DNA from: a virus
Length of the DNA stretch: 23,379 nucleotides
Direction: 5' to 3' (one strand)
IMG/VR virus record: IMGVR_UViG_3300020710_000036
Coordinates: 1 to 23,379 of that record
Within the stretch, counting starts at the first letter, position 1. Every line of letters begins with the position of its first letter. Below are positions 9,368 to 23,303 of this stretch, piece after piece. The position numbers and the translations under genes are program-made. The notes below the pieces were generated by a model. The model searched no databases. It was not told where the DNA came from and saw nothing but the letters and a program-made list of their open reading frames with translations.

Positions 9368-10297
9368 ATGCTAACCAGACTACTCGCAGTTGCAGCGGCA
9401 ACGATTATTGGTACAGCAGCAATGGCTGCTGAAATTACAGGTGCAGGTGCTACTTTCCCATATCCAATATATTCAAAATGGGCAGATGCTTATAAAAATA
9501 GTTCAGGTAATACACTTAACTACCAATCAATTGGCAGTGGTGCTGGCTTGAAGCAGATTGATGCAAAAACAGTTACATTTGGCGCAACTGATATTCCAGT
9601 AAAGCCAGAAGACCTAGAAAAGAAAGGTCAAGTTCAATTTCCAATGGTAGTTGGTGGCATTGTTCCAGTTGTAAATCTTAAAGAAGTTACAAATGGTAAA
9701 CTAACGCTTTCAACTGATATCCTTGCTAAAATCTATATGGAAAAGATTAAGCGTTGGAATGATAAGGAAATTGCAGCTATCAATGCAGGCGTCACGTTAC
9801 CAGACCTACCAATTATTAAGATTCGTCGCAGTGACGGTAGCGGTACTACTTGGAACTTCACACGTTTCCTTGCAGAAGCAAATGGCGATTGGAAGAAGAC
9901 ATTTGGATTTGGTCAAACAGTTGAATGGGCAGGCAGTGCTATTGGTGCTAATGGCAATGCTGGTGTTGCAGCAAACGTTCAACAAACCAATGGTTCAATT
10001 GGTTATGTAGAATATGCATATGCTAAGCAAAATAATCTTACTGTTGCTAATATGATTGGTAGCGATGGCAAATCAATTGCACCAAGCCTAAAAGCATTCC
10101 AGACAACTTGGCCAATGACAGCAACAACTTATATTGTTATGTATAAGGAACCAGTCGATAGTGCTGCCGCAAAGGAAGCAATCAAGTTCTTTGAATATGG
10201 TTATGCTAACGATAAGATGGCAGAAGAACTAGATTACGTACCGCTAACTGCTGCTCAAAAGGCAGAAACAAAAAAAGTTTGGTCAAGCATAAAATAA
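9368..10297 (+). CDS. pstS: Phosphate ABC transporter substrate-binding protein PstS
   Basis: A 309-aa periplasmic phosphate-binding protein. Residues 1-20 are a Sec signal peptide ending AMA|AE. The mature start ITGAGATFPYPIYSKWADAY is typical of PstS, as are GATDIPVK and the phosphate-contacting SDGSGTT. It would bind inorganic phosphate for the host PstCAB transporter, raising phosphate supply during infection; no transporter genes are in the window. Expression is probably under host PhoB through the PHO box immediately upstream. Phage pstS genes with PHO boxes are known in marine cyanophages. Confidence 0.95.
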   Translation: MLTRLLAVAAATIIGTAAMAAEITGAGATFPYPIYSKWADAYKNSSGNTLNYQSIGSGAGLKQIDAKTVTFGATDIPVKPEDLEKKGQVQFPMVVGGIVPVVNLKEVTNGKLTLSTDILAKIYMEKIKRWNDKEIAAINAGVTLPDLPIIKIRRSDGSGTTWNFTRFLAEANGDWKKTFGFGQTVEWAGSAIGANGNAGVAANVQQTNGSIGYVEYAYAKQNNLTVANMIGSDGKSIAPSLKAFQTTWPMTATTYIVMYKEPVDSAAAKEAIKFFEYGYANDKMAEELDYVPLTAAQKAETKKVWSSIK

Positions 10298-11918: not shown

Positions 11919-12467
11919 ATGTTTTATTTTATATACAAAACTACAAATAATATAAATGGAAAATATTATATTGGCTGTCACAAAACAGCCAATATAGATG
12001 ATGGATACATGGGTTCTGGAAAGGCATTATTAAAAGCCATAGAAAAATATGGCAAGCATAATTTTACAAAAGAAATATTGATTTATTGCACAACAATTGA
12101 TGACATGTTTGAAAAAGAAAAAGAAATAGTCAATGAAAGTGTAGTAAATGATGAAAATTCATATAATTTAAAAATAGGTGGTTCATCTAATTTTTATTAT
12201 GTTAATAAAAATAAATTAAATCATAAAACAAATCAACATCTGAAACATGCTGAAAAGTTAAAAAACGATCCAGAGTATGCAAAGCAATTTAGCAAAAAAA
12301 TGAGTATTGCTAATAGAAAAAAAGAACATAAAAAAACGGAAAAACAAAAAGAATCTGCAAAAAAAGTTATGACATTATTAAATGAAAAAAGAAAAAATAA
12401 TAGAAATCATACAGTAGAAACAAAAGTTAAAATTGCAGCATCAGTAAAAAAAAAGATGGGACGATAG
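11919..12467 (+). CDS. GIY-YIG homing endonuclease (copy 1, 182 aa)
   Basis: The N-terminus MFYFIYKTTNNINGKYYIGC is a GIY-YIG nuclease domain (IYK ... YYIG), followed by the DDGYMGSGKALLKAIEKYG segment shared by the free-standing phage GIY-YIG family. The C-terminal half is lysine-rich and helical, fitting a DNA-binding tail; NUMOD3-type motifs are weaker than in copies 2 and 3. Such enzymes cut DNA near their own gene so that it is copied into related phages. The stop codon lies inside the tRNA-Cys gene (10-base overlap), so the coding region abuts a tRNA as expected for insertion at a conserved site. AT content is higher than in neighbours. Transcribed from the late promoter at 11897. Confidence 0.9.
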   Translation: MFYFIYKTTNNINGKYYIGCHKTANIDDGYMGSGKALLKAIEKYGKHNFTKEILIYCTTIDDMFEKEKEIVNESVVNDENSYNLKIGGSSNFYYVNKNKLNHKTNQHLKHAEKLKNDPEYAKQFSKKMSIANRKKEHKKTEKQKESAKKVMTLLNEKRKNNRNHTVETKVKIAASVKKKMGR

Positions 12468-13118: not shown

Positions 13119-13748
13119 ATGTTTTATACGATTTATAAAATTACTAATATCATAAACAACAAATATTATATTGGTATGCATCAAACTGAAAATATAAATG
13201 ACAATTATATGGGTTCTGGTAAACTTATTAAAATAGCCATACAAAAATATGGAATTGAAAATTTTAAAAAAGAAATATTACATATATTCGATAACGAAAA
13301 AGATATGAAAAATAAAGAAAAAGAACTCGTTGTTTTAGATGAAATGAGTTATAATCTCTGTGATGGCGGGAAAGGTGGATTTGGATATATTAATCGTACA
13401 GGATTAAATAATAATCACAAAGATAAAGAAGCAATATATGAAAAGGTATCAAAGTCTCTATCTGGCAGACAATTACCACATGTATCTTCTCTTCTTAAAG
13501 AAAGACATGAAAATGGATTATTTAAAAAAACATATTTTGGTTCTCGTGGGGAAATTGACAAATTAGCTTTAGAAAAAGCACACTCACCAGAATCTAATGC
13601 AAAACGCATTAAAACATATCGAGAAAAAGAACACCAAAAAGGTGAAAAAAATTCTCAATTTGGTAAACCAAGAAGTGAAGAAACTAAACAAAAAATAAGA
13701 GAATCTCTGGCAAAAACCAGAGAATTAAAAAAATTATCAACAATTTAA
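13119..13748 (+). CDS. GIY-YIG homing endonuclease (copy 2, 209 aa)
   Basis: MFYTIYKITNIINNKYYIGM is the GIY-YIG nuclease core, followed by NDNYMGSGKLIKIAIQKYG and the conserved GGKGGFGYIN. The C-terminal segment GEKNSQFGKPRSEETKQKI is a NUMOD3-type DNA-binding motif. It is clearly paralogous to the copies at 11919 and 15286. The stop at 13748 is one base before a tRNA-like remnant, and tRNA-Asp lies just upstream, so the gene is wedged between tRNAs. Expression should be late, controlled by the promoter-in-hairpin at 13065. Confidence 0.92.
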   Translation: MFYTIYKITNIINNKYYIGMHQTENINDNYMGSGKLIKIAIQKYGIENFKKEILHIFDNEKDMKNKEKELVVLDEMSYNLCDGGKGGFGYINRTGLNNNHKDKEAIYEKVSKSLSGRQLPHVSSLLKERHENGLFKKTYFGSRGEIDKLALEKAHSPESNAKRIKTYREKEHQKGEKNSQFGKPRSEETKQKIRESLAKTRELKKLSTI

Positions 13749-15138: not shown

Positions 15139-15147
15139 AATATATAC

Positions 15148-15220
15148 CTCTGTGGAGTTAGGGTAAGATTAATACCGCACTTGGACTGCGGGGAATCTGG
15201 GGCAGCGCCAGACACGGAGA
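15148..15220 (+). tRNA. tRNA-Pro(TGG), unusual T-loop
   Basis: 73 nt. Acceptor CTCTGTG/CACGGAG, anticodon arm CCGCA-CTTGGAC-TGCGG perfect (TGG), T-stem TCTGG/CCAGA perfect, but the T-loop is GGCAGCG instead of TTCRANY and CCA is not encoded (CAC follows A73). Confidence 0.65.
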
Positions 15221-15226
15221 CACAAG

Positions 15227-15285: not shown

Positions 15286-15984
15286 ATGTTTTATACAATC
15301 TATAAAATTACTAATAAAATAAATGGCAAATATTATATTGGTAAACACCAAACTACCAATCTAAATGATGGGTATATGGGAAGTGGAAAAAATGTAAAAA
15401 GAGCAATTGCCAAATACGGCATTGAAAATTTTACAAAAGAAATATTACACACCTATGATAATGAAGCAGATATGAATGCTGCTGAAAAAAAATTAGTTGT
15501 TATAAGTGAAGAAACCTACAATTTATGCGAAGGCGGAAAAGGTGGGTTTAGTCATATTAACAAAAATAATCTATCTGTAAAAAATTTAAAAAATCCAAAT
15601 GTTAGAAAAGTTGCCACTAAAAATTCCAATAAAAAAAGAATAGAAAATTTTAATAATAATACAGTGTTAAAAAAACAGTGGGAAGATAATATATCTAATA
15701 GTTTAAAATCTTATTATAAAACACATTCTGGAACTTTTACAGGAAAAAGACACCCAAAGGAAATTGAAAATAGAATTGCTGAAAAGTTAAAAATAACAAA
15801 TAAAGGCAGCGGTAATCCAAATTTTGGAAAATGTTGGATTAAAAATGTAAAAACAAAAGAATATGGAATGATATTAAAATCTGATTTAAATTATTGGATT
15901 TCTCTTGGGTGGGAACTTGGACAAATACGAGAAAATGGTATTCCAGTAAAATTGAAAAATAATCAAGACGGTAAGGCACAGTAA
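15286..15984 (+). CDS. GIY-YIG homing endonuclease (copy 3, 232 aa)
   Basis: MFYTIYKITNKINGKYYIGK is the GIY-YIG core; NDGYMGSGKNVKRAIAKYG and CEGGKGGFSHIN match copies 1 and 2. The C-terminal part has NUMOD3-like motifs (FTGKRHPKEIENRI, GSGNPNFGK) and then a segment KEYGMILKSDLNYWISLGWE that fits a DNA-contacting module. The last codons (GKAQ, stop) are encoded by the first copy of the 81-bp repeat at 15970, so the C-terminus was rebuilt or created at that junction. It sits between tRNA-Pro and the repeat, with late expression expected from 15238. Confidence 0.92.
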   Translation: MFYTIYKITNKINGKYYIGKHQTTNLNDGYMGSGKNVKRAIAKYGIENFTKEILHTYDNEADMNAAEKKLVVISEETYNLCEGGKGGFSHINKNNLSVKNLKNPNVRKVATKNSNKKRIENFNNNTVLKKQWEDNISNSLKSYYKTHSGTFTGKRHPKEIENRIAEKLKITNKGSGNPNFGKCWIKNVKTKEYGMILKSDLNYWISLGWELGQIRENGIPVKLKNNQDGKAQ

Positions 15985-16050
15985 ACAATCCGCAATGGCG
16001 ATGGGATGTGTCACGGTGTGGGCGATAGATGGGGGCTGCACACTGACTTT
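15970..16050 (+). repeat. 81-bp direct repeat, copy 1
   Basis: Identical over 81 bases to 16848-16928. It includes the end of the GIY-YIG ORF and can fold into GTCA-(CG)-GTGTG ... CACAC-TGAC near its 3' end. The following bases (16051-16086) weakly resemble the 5' half of tRNA-Lys that follows copy 2. GC content is above the surroundings, which suggests a structured RNA. Confidence 0.92.
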
Positions 16051-16086
16051 GAAATTTTGGATCGGTTACCGTAGTGGCGAACGGAA

Positions 16087-16752
16087 CTAATCTATATCAA
16101 AGTCTAAGGGTGTCTCGTAACAAGTATGTATTTGCAGCACTTCTTTAACATCACGCCCAATTAATTCAACCCAATTATTTGTGCAATGAATTTGATTGCT
16201 ATTAAAAATTACAGCAGAACCTGCACTATATTCAAAAATACCATCGAGAGTAAGATAATTTGCAACATAGTCTCGGATACGTTCATCATAAGTGTGTGAT
16301 ATATTTTCAAGTTCGCTGATATTATTTTTTCGTTGTTTAGTTTTAATTAATTTATATAGATCATTAGATGCTAACCAATTAAAATAAAGTGAAGTTTTTT
16401 CAAATTTTTCTTTAAAAACAATCGTTTTGCTTTGTGGCAAATCATCTAAGGCTATCACCATTGTATATCTATACAAATGTTCATTGCCATTTGGTTCATC
16501 CATATGTAAATTTAAAGGTTTATATTGTAATTGATAACCGCCATAAGGTTCTTCGTATGGTATTGGAAAATTATTTTTTACTAAACGATCAACAATAGCA
16601 AAACATTCATCTTTATTTGACAAATCTATTCTGGAATTTAATAATTCGCTTTGACTTTTAAATAAATCATATTTTTTATTTAAACTTTGATTAAACCAGT
16701 TTCGCAATTCATTAATTTCTGCTTGAGATAAAATTTTGTTAAACAATTTCAT
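16087..16752 (-). CDS. 2OG-Fe(II) oxygenase-like protein (221 aa)
   Basis: A 221-aa protein with a plausible 2-oxoglutarate/Fe(II) dioxygenase facial triad: HMD at 83-85 (H83, D85) and H189 in SNQIHCTNNW, plus R200/K203 after it as 2OG-binding candidates. The double-stranded beta-helix pattern fits (YTMVIALDD, SAVIFNSNQ, EVLQIHT). Phage members of this group may hydroxylate proteins, nucleotides or surface sugars; the substrate is unknown. The gene is opposite to its neighbours, strongly AT-rich, flanked by the 81-bp direct repeats and has its own late promoter ending 6 bases before its ATG, so it looks like an inserted cassette. Confidence 0.75.
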   Translation of the reverse strand: MKLFNKILSQAEINELRNWFNQSLNKKYDLFKSQSELLNSRIDLSNKDECFAIVDRLVKNNFPIPYEEPYGGYQLQYKPLNLHMDEPNGNEHLYRYTMVIALDDLPQSKTIVFKEKFEKTSLYFNWLASNDLYKLIKTKQRKNNISELENISHTYDERIRDYVANYLTLDGIFEYSAGSAVIFNSNQIHCTNNWVELIGRDVKEVLQIHTCYETPLDFDID

Positions 16753-16757
16753 AAAAT

Positions 16758-16765
16758 TATTTATA
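16758..16765 (-). promoter_or_regulatory. Late promoter of oxygenase gene
   Basis: A perfect TATAAATA on the minus strand, only 5 bases from the ATG at 16752 and with no ribosome-binding site between, which predicts a leaderless or nearly leaderless mRNA. Confidence 0.65.
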
Positions 16766-16847
16766 TATTATAAATCTGATATAACAAATATTGCAATTTG
16801 GGTAGGGTGTGTTGGCAAAAAAATGCTACCTATATAAAAACTAAGAT

Positions 16848-16928
16848 GGTAAGGCACAGTAAACAATCCGCAATGGCGATGGGATGTGTCACGGTGTGGG
16901 CGATAGATGGGGGCTGCACACTGACTTT
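16848..16928 (+). repeat. 81-bp direct repeat, copy 2
   Basis: Second identical copy of 15970-16050, 878 bases downstream, ending 10 bases before tRNA-Lys(TTT). Between the oxygenase promoter and this copy (16766-16847) I see no gene. Confidence 0.92.
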
Positions 16929-16938
16929 TTGAATTTTA

Positions 16939-17014
16939 GAACGCTTAACTCAGTTGGTAGAGTACGGGTCTTTTAAACCTGTTGTCGTGGGTTCGAACCC
17001 CACAGCGTTCACCA
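16939..17014 (+). tRNA. tRNA-Lys(TTT)
   Basis: 76 nt with CCA. Acceptor GAACGCT/AGCGTTC perfect, anticodon arm CGGGT-CTTTTAA-ACCTG (TTT), T-arm GTGGG-TTCGAAC-CCCAC. Confidence 0.94.
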
Positions 17015-17021
17015 ATATAAT

Positions 17022-17098
17022 GCCTACGTAGTTCAGTGGAATAGAATAGCGGTCTTCGAAACCGTGGGTCGGGGGTTCAAATCCCTCCGTAGGCTCCA
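17022..17098 (+). tRNA. tRNA-Arg(TCG)
   Basis: 77 nt with CCA. Acceptor GCCTACG/CGTAGGC perfect, anticodon loop CTTCGAA (TCG) on stem GCGGT/ACCGT (G-T outer pair), T-arm with TTCAAAT loop. Confidence 0.93.
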
Positions 17099-17108
17099 AA
17101 AATAATAC

Positions 17109-17137
17109 TTGACAAATTTGTCAAATATAAGTATATT
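17109..17137 (+). promoter_or_regulatory. Sigma70-type promoter with palindromic -35 region
   Basis: TTGACA (17109-17114), 17-base spacer, TATATT (17132-17137). The -35 box is half of a perfect palindrome TTGACAAATTTGTCAA, which could be an operator. tRNA-Asn follows at 17154. Confidence 0.75.
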
Positions 17138-17153
17138 AAGAATATAAGGTTAT

Positions 17154-17229
17154 TGCTTAGTAGCACAGCGGTAGTTGCGTCGGTCTGTTAAACCGAGGGT
17201 CGTAGGTTCGAATCCTACCTAAGCAGCCA
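17154..17229 (+). tRNA. tRNA-Asn(GTT)
   Basis: 76 nt with CCA. Acceptor TGCTTAG/CTAAGCA perfect, anticodon arm TCGGT-CTGTTAA-ACCGA (GTT), T-arm GTAGG-TTCGAAT-CCTAC, discriminator G. Confidence 0.94.
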
Positions 17230-17245
17230 TTAACATACAATGTTA

Positions 17246-17283
17246 TATAAATACATATAGGTTCGAATAAGGAGACCTATATG
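17246..17283 (+). promoter_or_regulatory. Late promoter plus start-codon hairpin of HNH gene
   Basis: TATAAATA (17246-17253) is followed by a 9-bp inverted repeat CATATAGGT (17254-17262) / ACCTATATG (17275-17283) whose right arm contains the start codon and whose loop holds AAGGAG. A late transcript would start near 17259, losing most of the left arm and freeing the start. Confidence 0.75.
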
Positions 17284-17790
17284 AGTAAGCAATCTGAAAA
17301 TGTAATTAACTGGCGTAAAAGAACAAAACAAAAAATTGTTCAATCAATGGGTGGGTGTTGCCAAATTTGTGGATACTTCAAATGCGATGCGGCACTTGAA
17401 TTACACCACATAGACCCAACAAAAAAAGAATTAAGTTTTTCTTCAATTAGAGCAAATCCAAAATCAGCAGAGGCAATTAAGGTTGAATTAATAAAATGTA
17501 TTTTATTATGTTCTAATTGCCATAAAGAAATTCATAATGGTTTAATATCTATTCCAGAAAATTATGTGCAATTCAATGAAGAAATATTTGATGGTTGGAA
17601 AATTGAAAGAAAAGAACGCAAAGAAAAATTTAAGAAAGATAAAGTATGGCGTCAAAAGATGTTCTTAACCAATCAAGAAGTTTTTGAAAAGTTAACAACA
17701 ATCTATAATGGTAATAAATCTGCTATGGCAAGGGATTATGGAGTTACTGAAACTACTATTAGAAAAAGGTTAAAGATGTTAGAACGGTAG
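17281..17790 (+). CDS. HNH homing endonuclease (169 aa)
   Basis: An HNH nuclease: zinc-binding CQICG near residues 27-31, the catalytic LELHHID about 40-46, and CSNCHKEIH near 80, giving the CxxC...HH...CxxCH pattern. The C-terminal 50 residues contain SAMARDYGVTETTIRKRLKM, a helix-turn-helix that would read the DNA target. It lies downstream of tRNA-Asn within the tRNA cluster and has its own late promoter and hairpin, as the GIY-YIG genes do. Its 3' end overlaps the convergent DUF4337-like gene by 12 bases. Confidence 0.92.
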   Translation: MSKQSENVINWRKRTKQKIVQSMGGCCQICGYFKCDAALELHHIDPTKKELSFSSIRANPKSAEAIKVELIKCILLCSNCHKEIHNGLISIPENYVQFNEEIFDGWKIERKERKEKFKKDKVWRQKMFLTNQEVFEKLTTIYNGNKSAMARDYGVTETTIRKRLKMLER

Positions 17791-18402
17791 TGGAAAGAAA
17801 TACCAAATTCCATCTGCCAGAACAATCAAACCGATAATACCAACGGCAATGCTGCTATACCATAGAGCCATACTAACAGCAAGAATAGCAGTGGTTGAGA
17901 AGATAATAGCAATCTGAATAATGGTGCTAGCCATACCAAAGAATGGACTACACTTTTTGGCGCTATCACGGTCTGCTTCTAGCGCACGACCTTTTGCCAT
18001 AATTTCTTTTTTACCATCACCTTTTGGATCACTTTCTAACGCATCAATATATTTTTGATAGTTGTCAGCACGTGATTGCAACGCAGGTTTTAAACTTTTG
18101 TCAGTTTGAGGATCAGCAATTTGAACTTTTAAATCATCAAGGTTAAGTTGATACATATTTTGTTTAATGCTCTTGGCTTGATAAAAACCCCAAGTATCAC
18201 CAAGTTCAATATTATCAGCCATGATTCTACCACTGACTTGCCCACCAAGCCAAGATGTAATTGCTAACAGTGCAGCAAAGATTGTAATTGTTATAGAAGC
18301 AAGCCCTTTAAGAACGGCTTCACCCTCGCTGCGGCTTAATACCTTGCCTTCTTTACTTTTCAAAACCATGTCCATCATTCCTTGAAATTGTTTTATGTCC
18401 AT
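17779..18402 (-). CDS. DUF4337-like membrane protein (207 aa)
   Basis: A 207-aa protein with a hydrophobic segment at about 32-52 (ASITITIFAALLAITSW), a soluble middle containing DTWGFYQAKSIKQNMYQL, and two hydrophobic segments at about 158-180 and 183-203. The 'W.FYQAKSIKQ..Y.L' stretch and the one-plus-two membrane layout match DUF4337, a family of unknown function in bacteria and phages. It should sit in the inner membrane. It is the last gene of a three-gene minus-strand operon whose coding regions overlap, so the three products probably act together. Confidence 0.75.
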   Translation of the reverse strand: MDIKQFQGMMDMVLKSKEGKVLSRSEGEAVLKGLASITITIFAALLAITSWLGGQVSGRIMADNIELGDTWGFYQAKSIKQNMYQLNLDDLKVQIADPQTDKSLKPALQSRADNYQKYIDALESDPKGDGKKEIMAKGRALEADRDSAKKCSPFFGMASTIIQIAIIFSTTAILAVSMALWYSSIAVGIIGLIVLADGIWYFFPLPF

Positions 18403-19665: not shown

Positions 19666-19826
19666 GCTGCTTTAGCTCAGTTGGTAGAGCAACGCACTAA
19701 TCCGTAGCGGGTAACGCTACCAACCAAGTAGCAATGCTTGGTTGCTTGTGGGTATGAAGAGCCTAAAGCTCCCAATGCCGAGAGGTAATGCGTAGGTCGT
19801 CAGTTCGAATCCGACAAGCAGCACCA
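19666..19826 (+). tRNA. Interrupted tRNA, probably Thr(GGT), 85-nt insert in anticodon loop
   Basis: Acceptor GCTGCTT/AAGCAGC, D-arm GCTCAGTTGGTAGAGC, anticodon stem ACGCA (19692-19696) / TGCGT (19789-19793), T-loop TTCGAAT and CCA are all normal, but 92 nt lie in the anticodon loop. Removing 19699-19783 leaves the loop CTGGTAA, anticodon GGT. The insert folds into GTAGCG/CGCTAC (19704-19720), AACCAAG/CTTGGTT (19722-19743) and GAGC/GCTC (19759-19771). Exact junctions cannot be fixed, and no group I core motifs are seen. Confidence 0.75.
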
Positions 19827-21592: not shown

Positions 21593-21882
21593 ATGTATCA
21601 ATAGACGATATAGATATAGATAGCATAACCTCACTAGCACCTAACAAGTATCTTGTTAAAATATACCCAAATATTGGCACTCCTTATATTCCGCCATTTG
21701 GTTTTGAATTTCTTAAAGAAACTATACAAACACCATTACGTAAATGGTGTGATGAAAGTTTTTCCCACAATTATTCATTAAATTATAGATTTAACAGCGG
21801 CAACCCTTATTGGTCGCTGCTTTTTAATAGTAGCGAAGATGTTAATATCTTTATGCTACGTTTTGGTTCAAATAAACCCTAA
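21589..21882 (+). CDS. Hypothetical protein (97 aa)
   Basis: A 97-aa protein (MNVSIDDIDIDSITSLAPNK...) with several aromatic residues and a probable alpha/beta fold: YLVKIYPNIG, FEFLKETIQTPLRKWCDESF, YWSLLFNSSEDVNIFMLRFG. No motif is recognised. It starts in the ATGA overlap with the 52-aa gene and its last 32 bases overlap the end of the convergent sulfotransferase-like gene, an unusually long 3' overlap. Confidence 0.55.
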   Translation: MNVSIDDIDIDSITSLAPNKYLVKIYPNIGTPYIPPFGFEFLKETIQTPLRKWCDESFSHNYSLNYRFNSGNPYWSLLFNSSEDVNIFMLRFGSNKP

Positions 21883-22483
21883 TATCATTTGCTGCATAAT
21901 TTTGAATATTCAATTGTAATGGCGTAGCAATGCCTAATTTTTCACATAAATCAATATTATCATATATCATTGATAATTCATTATTTTTTACAAACTTTTT
22001 CAAGTCCTTATTCTGTTTATCAATGTGATGAGACATATCACGTAGGTTCTTATAATATCCACTATAACTAGGATAAGTTATGTCAAAGTGTCCACAACGG
22101 ACCCACCAGCCCAAACACGCATCGTTGTCACGTTCAACACATATAATTGGACAATCTGGCCAAGTTTTGCGAATGAATTCAAGATGATGGCAAAATACGT
22201 GACTCTTAATGATGCGAACTCCCTCACCATTAAACGGACGATCAAATTCTTCTTCTAGCGTATCTTTACTCATATAAGGAAGTAAATTAAACTTGTAACC
22301 AAACTCCATATGAGGATCAAAATAAGCACCAAGGTGCATAAGTTGATTTGTACCACTTGCATCATGATAATAGGTTCGTGTATCACTATAATCAGTTTGG
22401 TCAATGTCAGGAGAGTAGTAAATGTTCTTTACTACACTGCTCCACTTGCTGCCTGGTGCGCCTGCTACAAAGATATATTTCAT
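21851..22483 (-). CDS. Sulfotransferase-like P-loop protein (210 aa)
   Basis: The N-terminus MKYIFVAGAPGSKWSSVVKN contains GAPGSKWSS (8-16), a P-loop variant like the PAPS-binding 5'-PSB loop of sulfotransferases. Later KSHVFCHHLEFIRKTWPD and IICVERDNDACLGWW fit the second half, where sulfotransferases have a conserved Arg/Ser pair for the 3' phosphate. Closely similar proteins are common in marine T4-like phages, usually unannotated. It is the last gene of a minus-strand operon overlapping the nucleotidyltransferase-like gene by 4 bases. Kinase activity is an alternative. Confidence 0.6.
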   Translation of the reverse strand: MKYIFVAGAPGSKWSSVVKNIYYSPDIDQTDYSDTRTYYHDASGTNQLMHLGAYFDPHMEFGYKFNLLPYMSKDTLEEEFDRPFNGEGVRIIKSHVFCHHLEFIRKTWPDCPIICVERDNDACLGWWVRCGHFDITYPSYSGYYKNLRDMSHHIDKQNKDLKKFVKNNELSMIYDNIDLCEKLGIATPLQLNIQNYAANDIRVYLNQNVA

Positions 22484-22842
22484 AAACCCATTTCTTTACG
22501 AATTTTTGTAGCACTTATAGCATGTGTTTCTTCATCAAACACTTCTTGTTCAATCTTATATCCAACATCACGACCGTATGTTATATTGACAATATTAGGA
22601 ACAAGGTTTACAAGAAAATCATGATTAAATTTATAACCGTTTTCTTCTAATTCTTTAATAATACGTTCTTTTACAAAACCATAATCAAACGGATTGTTAT
22701 CGGTACCCCCAACATCACGCACCATAATCATTACTTGGCCTGTTTTATCGTGTGCACGTTTAAATAGTGCAAAATGCCCATCGTGCCAAGGTTGCCATCG
22801 TCCTAACATTTGCACTGTAGGTGCTTGATTATTCCACGTCAT
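22480..22842 (-). CDS. HxGH nucleotidyltransferase-like protein (120 aa)
   Basis: A small protein of the HxGH/cytidylyltransferase-like superfamily: GRWQPWHDGH at 14-23 carries the HxGH motif that binds ATP/CTP, and ISATKIR at 109-115 matches the C-terminal ISxTxxR motif. These enzymes transfer a nucleotidyl group to phosphate- or sulfate-containing substrates. At 120 aa it is much shorter than ATP sulfurylase or NadM, so the substrate is uncertain. Start and stop overlap the neighbouring genes by 4 bases each (ATGA), so it is coupled to the APS kinase-like and sulfotransferase-like genes. Confidence 0.72.
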   Translation of the reverse strand: MTWNNQAPTVQMLGRWQPWHDGHFALFKRAHDKTGQVMIMVRDVGGTDNNPFDYGFVKERIIKELEENGYKFNHDFLVNLVPNIVNITYGRDVGYKIEQEVFDEETHAISATKIRKEMGL

Positions 22843-23303
22843 TTTCCTAATCCATAAATCATTGCTTTAATCCAACTCGGTTTATATTCTAAATCAAGTT
22901 CTTCAAATATTGCTTTTGCCCAAAATTCTGCATCTTGTGTATCAACTCGCCAACGATATTTTGTTGGGGGAATAAACAATTTGTTAGTATCTGCAAATCG
23001 TCCTTCTTTTATAGTATCTACCCATATAGTGATACAATCACCAAATGCTTCACGTGTTTGTGGCGTTGGGCAAACAAATTCTCCAATAGCAACGTGACCT
23101 GCTGCCACCACTTGATCGCATAGCCAACCCATACGACGAGCCTGTTCTATGCGATCTGCTTCACTAAAACCAAGATGACTGTTGATATTTGCACGAACAG
23201 CATCTGCGTTCCAATGAACTGCACGTAATTTTGGTGCCAAGGCTTTCGCCAAGGTCGTTTTACCCGACCCTGGCAAGCCCATTATTAATATCTTCTTATT
23301 CAT
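22839..23303 (-). CDS. APS kinase-like P-loop kinase (154 aa)
   Basis: The Walker A motif GLPGSGKTT lies at 9-17, followed by HWNADAVRANINSHLGFSEADR, which parallels the APS kinase signature (GDNVR..LN..LGFS..DR). VAIGEFVCPTPQTREAF occupies the place of the FISPxxxxR segment. APS kinase phosphorylates adenylylsulfate to PAPS; some residues differ, so a different small substrate is possible. At 154 aa it is shorter than typical CysC (about 200 aa). Its ATG overlaps the stop of an upstream partial gene and its end overlaps the nucleotidyltransferase-like gene. Confidence 0.7.
   Translation of the reverse strand: MNKKILIMGLPGSGKTTLAKALAPKLRAVHWNADAVRANINSHLGFSEADRIEQARRMGWLCDQVVAAGHVAIGEFVCPTPQTREAFGDCITIWVDTIKEGRFADTNKLFIPPTKYRWRVDTQDAEFWAKAIFEELDLEYKPSWIKAMIYGLGK

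Follow-up and report, generated by a model that had tools for sequence, protein, structure and literature searches.

What do two perfect copies of an 81-bp sequence do in a phage tRNA array, on either side of a single gene that runs in the other direction? We addressed this question in a 23,379-nt stretch of the IMG/VR virus record IMGVR_UViG_3300020710_000036 (positions 1 to 23,379; referred to here as the window). The 23.4-kb record is probably a fragment of a virus genome. The window region is a tRNA array with 17 tRNAs (detected by ARAGORN) and several interspersed GIY-YIG and HNH endonuclease genes. The layout given in the original prediction (i.e., perfect direct repeats around an AT-rich gene of opposite direction, followed by tRNA-Lys) was reproduced. 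The copies at 15970-16050 and 16848-16928 are identical at 81/81 positions, lie on the same strand 878 bp apart (start to start), and enclose one minus-strand ORF (16087-16752) in AT-rich DNA; a tRNA-Lys(TTT) begins at 16939. Extended into the flanks, the match covers 93 nt at 96% identity, and no dinucleotide shuffle of the window contained a repeat match of this kind. The locus consists of the following features:

15144..15221, + strand: tRNA-Pro-like gene filling the tRNA-Pro slot (98 to 100% identical to the element's left neighbor in records L005, L007, L008, L010, and L012)
15286..15984, + strand: free-standing gene for a GIY-YIG homing endonuclease, an insertion at copy 1's left edge (Pfam and PHROG matches)
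15970..16050, + strand: predicted structured RNA element, copy 1 (covariance model R1, 116.9 bits)
16059..16084, + strand: 26-nt 5' fragment of a type-A tRNA-Lys(TTT), ending with the D arm and identical to the intact 84-nt tRNA-Lys of L005, L006, L009, and L013
16087..16752, - strand: oxygenase-like ORF (221 aa) with conserved H83-x-D85 ... H189; two homologues keep the triad
16848..16928, + strand: predicted structured RNA element, copy 2 (covariance model R1, 116.9 bits)
16939..17014, + strand: intact type-B tRNA-Lys(TTT) (ARAGORN; Rfam, 69.2 bits), of the same type as that after the element in L007, L010, and L022 to L024

The nature of the repeated sequence (i.e., the element) emerged from related phages. 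Scans of IMG/VR with parts of the element yielded 21 records, composed of L003 and L004, which belong to the window's phage, and 19 others representing about 12 distinct alleles. The element was present as a single copy in 19/19 of these other records, and no oxygenase gene adjoined it; relatives with one copy and no oxygenase, which the original prediction had proposed to look for, were therefore found. With covariance model R1, 17 other records each had a single full match, and only the window's phage had two. The element is oriented like the tRNAs and is located about 8 to 10 nt upstream of a tRNA-Lys(TTT), and its left neighbor is a tRNA-Pro(TGG) or Pro-like gene in nearly all of the 19 records. 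Its identity across most alleles (92 to 100%) is above that of the adjoining tRNAs. L003 and L004, which carry two copies, are 99.98 to 99.99% identical to the window over 9 to 12 kb, and the two-copy records appear to be one stable genotype rather than a locus in flux. A diverged element (R1, 41.8 bits) precedes tRNA-Lys in 111-kb and 338-kb contigs. In the relative L065, tRNA-Pro and tRNA-Lys are 14 nt apart and the element is absent, which indicates that some phages can do without it.

The 338-kb relative shares 53.6% identity in its large terminase with Pseudomonas phages PA5oct and Paride (Arenbergviridae, Wroclawvirus), which places the element-bearing phages, a freshwater group, among the jumbo phages. 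The window's phage would itself be a jumbo phage, judging from its shared array and neighboring genes. The likeness to PA5oct does not extend to the element, of which no credible copy was found in PA5oct, Sinorhizobium phage Phosso, or Cronobacter phage GAP32, and cultured phages gave no DNA match to it. Three kinds of candidates were rejected: a weak match in PA5oct that falls in the tail sheath gene, a pattern match in L019 attributable to chance (18 bits, no tRNAs), and 22 core-pattern matches in 257 Gb of bacterial genomes, which is about the chance expectation and of which the covariance model confirmed 0.

The original prediction had described the element as structured, and this was shown by covariation rather than by folding of single sequences. 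Alone, the window element had a z score of -0.8, and most alleles folded no better than shuffles (the exception was L063; z, -2.9). The consensus fold consists of two hairpins (i.e., P1, in which GGCACA pairs with UGUGUC and which encloses an inner hairpin, and then P2, in which CGGUGUGGGC pairs with GCUGCACACUG around a G-rich loop). Double-sided changes that keep the pair were observed in the inner hairpin (C-G to G-C), in P2 (G-C to U-A and to A-U; U-A to C-G), and in P1 of L063 (C-G to U-A), and in the diverged member from the 111-kb and 338-kb contigs, P1 is rebuilt as GAUACA/UGUAUC. One P1 pair is broken in L018 (C-A). Few independent changes underlie the covariation support, about four of them double sided. 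In total, 99.6% of the alignment cells were paired, versus 19 to 50% when the partners were slid; the alignment for these counts was fitted to the covariance model, and an independent MAFFT alignment of 11 alleles agreed with it. Given that pairs are kept by double-sided changes in diverged members, the element is, by comparison of alleles, a structured RNA.

This RNA did not fall into a known class. No Rfam family matched either copy at E values up to 5, and at the gathering score there was no Rfam match to the element in L012, L018, L022, and L063. Neither copy was called as a tRNA by ARAGORN or the Rfam tRNA model, and no cloverleaf was found. A small ORF inside the element is disrupted in L018 and L063 by an indel of 2 nt and is therefore not conserved. 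Searches for a plus-strand intrinsic terminator at either copy were negative, and the longest match to an antisense target within the window (10 to 11 nt) was the same as in shuffles. Separately, the tRNA-Pro-like gene at 15144-15221 has TGG at the anticodon position and a noncanonical T loop and is missed by ARAGORN; such a gene occupies the tRNA-Pro slot in many records, including L005, L007, L010, L012, and L063.

If the element is normally single, how did the window come to have two? The tRNAs that follow the copies suggest an answer. Two types of tRNA-Lys(TTT) are relevant, type A (GGATCGG..., 84 nt) and type B (GAACGCTT..., 76 nt), and type A is about 56 to 63% identical to types B/C. 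After copy 1, a type-A tRNA-Lys begins but runs for only 26 nt, and the type-B tRNA-Lys after copy 2 is intact. Homology to all type-A relatives ends at 16084, just 5' of the anticodon arm, and the stop codon of the 221-aa ORF lies immediately after this break, at 16087-16089. Record L013 matches the window at 99.15% over 941 bp, from 15145 to exactly 16084, in a stretch that contains the Pro-like gene, the same GIY-YIG gene, and one element. Beyond the break, L013 continues with an intact type-A tRNA-Lys and then tRNA-Arg. Relative to L013, the last 58 nt of tRNA-Lys A are replaced in the window by about 930 nt comprising the ORF, the second element, and tRNA-Lys B. The right side of the window locus (17017-17817) is 99.1% identical to L023, a type-B allele.

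The broken type-A tRNA and the intact one-element allele of L013 point to an origin of the window locus by insertion, and the comparison supports the view that the oxygenase-like ORF is part of that insertion. A resident type-A tRNA-Lys would have received the oxygenase-like gene, a second element, and a type-B tRNA-Lys and would have been truncated after its D arm, leaving the phage with one intact tRNA-Lys and an additional element. The event may have started with a break in the tRNA-Lys region, possibly made by a homing endonuclease of the array, and repair from the type-B allele of another phage, the putative source of the replacement DNA, would have required two joins, one of them illegitimate and the other homologous. 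Among the IMG/VR records scanned, none had the ORF next to a lone element, as a donor allele would.

The array does encode candidate enzymes for such a break. The GIY-YIG gene at 15286-15984 matches Pfam SegE_GIY-YIG (26.6 bits; cut-off, 25) and a PHROG homing endonuclease (3.5e-37); its last codons and stop fall inside copy 1, and L013 carries a 99.85% identical gene at the corresponding position. In phage T6, the GIY-YIG enzyme SegB duplicates tRNA-locus DNA via breaks and short homologies, producing a tandem repeat unit of tRNA-Tyr plus segB (PMC13096335), and an enzyme of this kind may plausibly have caused the rearrangement in the window. Both systems combine a GIY-YIG gene in a tRNA array with an adjacent duplicated stretch that includes a tRNA region. 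In the window, however, the endonuclease gene is outside the repeated part, the repeat is an RNA element, and a different tRNA follows each copy. We also observed that three related GIY-YIG genes (11919-12467, 13119-13748, and 15286-15984), 61 to 75% identical in DNA across their first 275 nt, occupy different slots of the array and that those of relatives occupy yet other slots.

The gene between the copies had been predicted to encode a 2OG oxygenase. As far as the evidence goes, the conserved HxD...H motif suggests that the 221-aa protein is oxygenase-like: H83, D85, and H189, which match the HxD...H pattern of 2OG-Fe(II) oxygenases, are invariant in the protein and its two homologues (22 to 23% identity). 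Of these homologues, L026:1180-1836 is in L015's contig, at a different slot of the array, and L134:1495-2142 is in a 320-kb phage. Profile searches against Pfam, PHROG, and NCBIfam remained negative at E values as permissive as 1 to 10, and scans for further relatives recovered with each query only its own phage. Structure predictions made from three sequences only (mean pLDDT, 33 and 37) did not provide usable models. PDB profile matches to enterotoxin (E, 0.004) were taken as chance because they came from a two-sequence profile and fell in the wrong region.

Several other features of the window were recorded. Inside the anticodon loop of tRNA-Thr(AGT) (19666-19823) is a strongly folded insertion of 85 nt (19700-19784). 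It is absent from four relatives and, among the fetched loci, occurs only in the window's phage. The tRNA stretch with the insert has a z score of -4.3 and no match to an Rfam intron family; the insert is too short for a usual group I intron and may be an intron or an inactivating insertion. A DUF4337 gene (17779-18402), on the strand opposite to the tRNAs, adjoins the array in close relatives as well and has more than 400 IMG/VR relatives and no match among cultured phages. A PstS-like phosphate-binding gene, a typical phage auxiliary gene, is at 9368-10297. Genes at 21851-23303 resemble those for APS kinase, an ATP-sulfurylase or cytidylyltransferase-like protein, and a sulfotransferase (the last two below the cut-off) and possibly form a sulfation set.

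Overall, we consider it likely that the repeats are two copies of a structured RNA that is normally single in the tRNA array, that an insertion broke tRNA-Lys A, and that the RNA is freed by tRNA processing and acts in trans. The element RNA would be transcribed together with the tRNA array. RNase P, cutting at the 5' end of tRNA-Lys, would free it from the downstream tRNA, and 3' maturation of the upstream tRNA would release its 5' side. The product would be a stable two-hairpin RNA of about 80 to 100 nt that acts in trans. For the element itself, such a cotranscribed, processing-released, and trans-acting RNA gene appears to be the most likely reading of the alleles compared, and a role in cis is its main rival. 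We propose more tentatively that the element founds a new family of trans-acting phage RNAs in jumbo-phage tRNA arrays, that this RNA serves the phage during infection (e.g., by binding an RNA-binding protein of the host or by counteracting a defense directed at tRNAs), and that its conserved sequence also anchors swaps of tRNA genes. The tRNA cluster of bacteriophage T4 encodes stable non-tRNA RNAs, RNA C and RNA D. Likened by description only, these and the element are small non-tRNA RNA genes in a phage tRNA array, on the same strand as the tRNAs; the element differs in its fixed position before tRNA-Lys and in being known from sequence alone. Literature searches returned nothing usable, either on these two T4 RNAs or on RNA families encoded within the tRNA arrays of phages.

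The element might instead be a cis-acting leader that only helps to fold, process, or protect the downstream tRNA-Lys transcript. Its constant distance of 8 to 10 nt from tRNA-Lys(TTT) of any type would suit such a role, as would the arrival of the element and the new tRNA-Lys as one in the window insertion. However, the element is conserved although tRNA-Lys differs fully between alleles (A versus B/C); thus, it shows no fit to one tRNA, and L065 has a tRNA-Lys without the element. We regard the leader as a rather unlikely explanation.

Less likely still is the arrangement originally predicted, in which the 81-bp direct repeats, identical through recent duplication or ongoing conversion, recombine and bound a mobile, cleanly excisable oxygenase cassette. 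The repeats are long enough for phage recombination, the ORF has a homologue in a different array slot in L015's contig, and the copies are perfectly identical while the element versions of type-B alleles elsewhere are 88 to 97% identical to copy 2. This identity modestly favors a recent duplication or homogenization and proves neither, considering that 2/66 independent pairs among 12 alleles are identical in the element, that the window's 81-mer is also present in L006 and L009, and that independent draws would be expected to match roughly 3 to 15% of the time, the value varying with the framing of the question. Against the cassette, the element is single and oxygenase free in all other records and therefore not a cassette end; it is a conserved phage RNA locus, older than the insertion. 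In addition, copy 1 adjoins a broken tRNA-Lys, and there is no recombinase gene between the copies.

The flanks of the element bear on the predicted clean deletion. Left flanks of L005 and L007 are 97% identical and their elements identical, but their tRNA-Lys genes are unrelated (56%); L005 and L006 have left flanks of 60% identity and identical right flanks. The tRNAs on either side have thus been swapped independently, which indicates that recombination acts at or near the element. As read from these alleles, the mosaic flanks show exchange between phages at or near the element, not excision. Loss of one element by recombination between the copies is plausible; the product would combine the endonuclease gene, one element, and a type-B tRNA-Lys, but this allele is absent among the records found, and the known insertion-free allele, L013, has a type-A tRNA-Lys.

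Least probable is that the element serves as DNA and not as RNA, as a conserved recombination anchor or endonuclease target for swapping neighboring tRNA genes: the independently swapped flanks (L005/L007 share the left flank and element; L005/L006 share the right) and the GIY-YIG gene inserted exactly at its left edge are consistent with such a site, but double-sided changes preserve RNA pairs, both hairpins persist in L063 despite an identity of about 60%, the element has a fixed strand and a fixed distance to tRNA-Lys, and anchoring could be a by-product of conservation.

With the preferred reading of two copies of a normally single RNA gene, the locus appears as a tRNA replacement caught in mid-course, in which the old tRNA is broken, a new one is supplied, and a near-identical insertion-free allele is at hand. 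Because tRNAs are usually all that is looked for in phage tRNA arrays, a conserved non-tRNA RNA gene in them is easily missed; a covariance model of the element now exists. If the RNA is made, it would be a new phage RNA whose role is directly testable.
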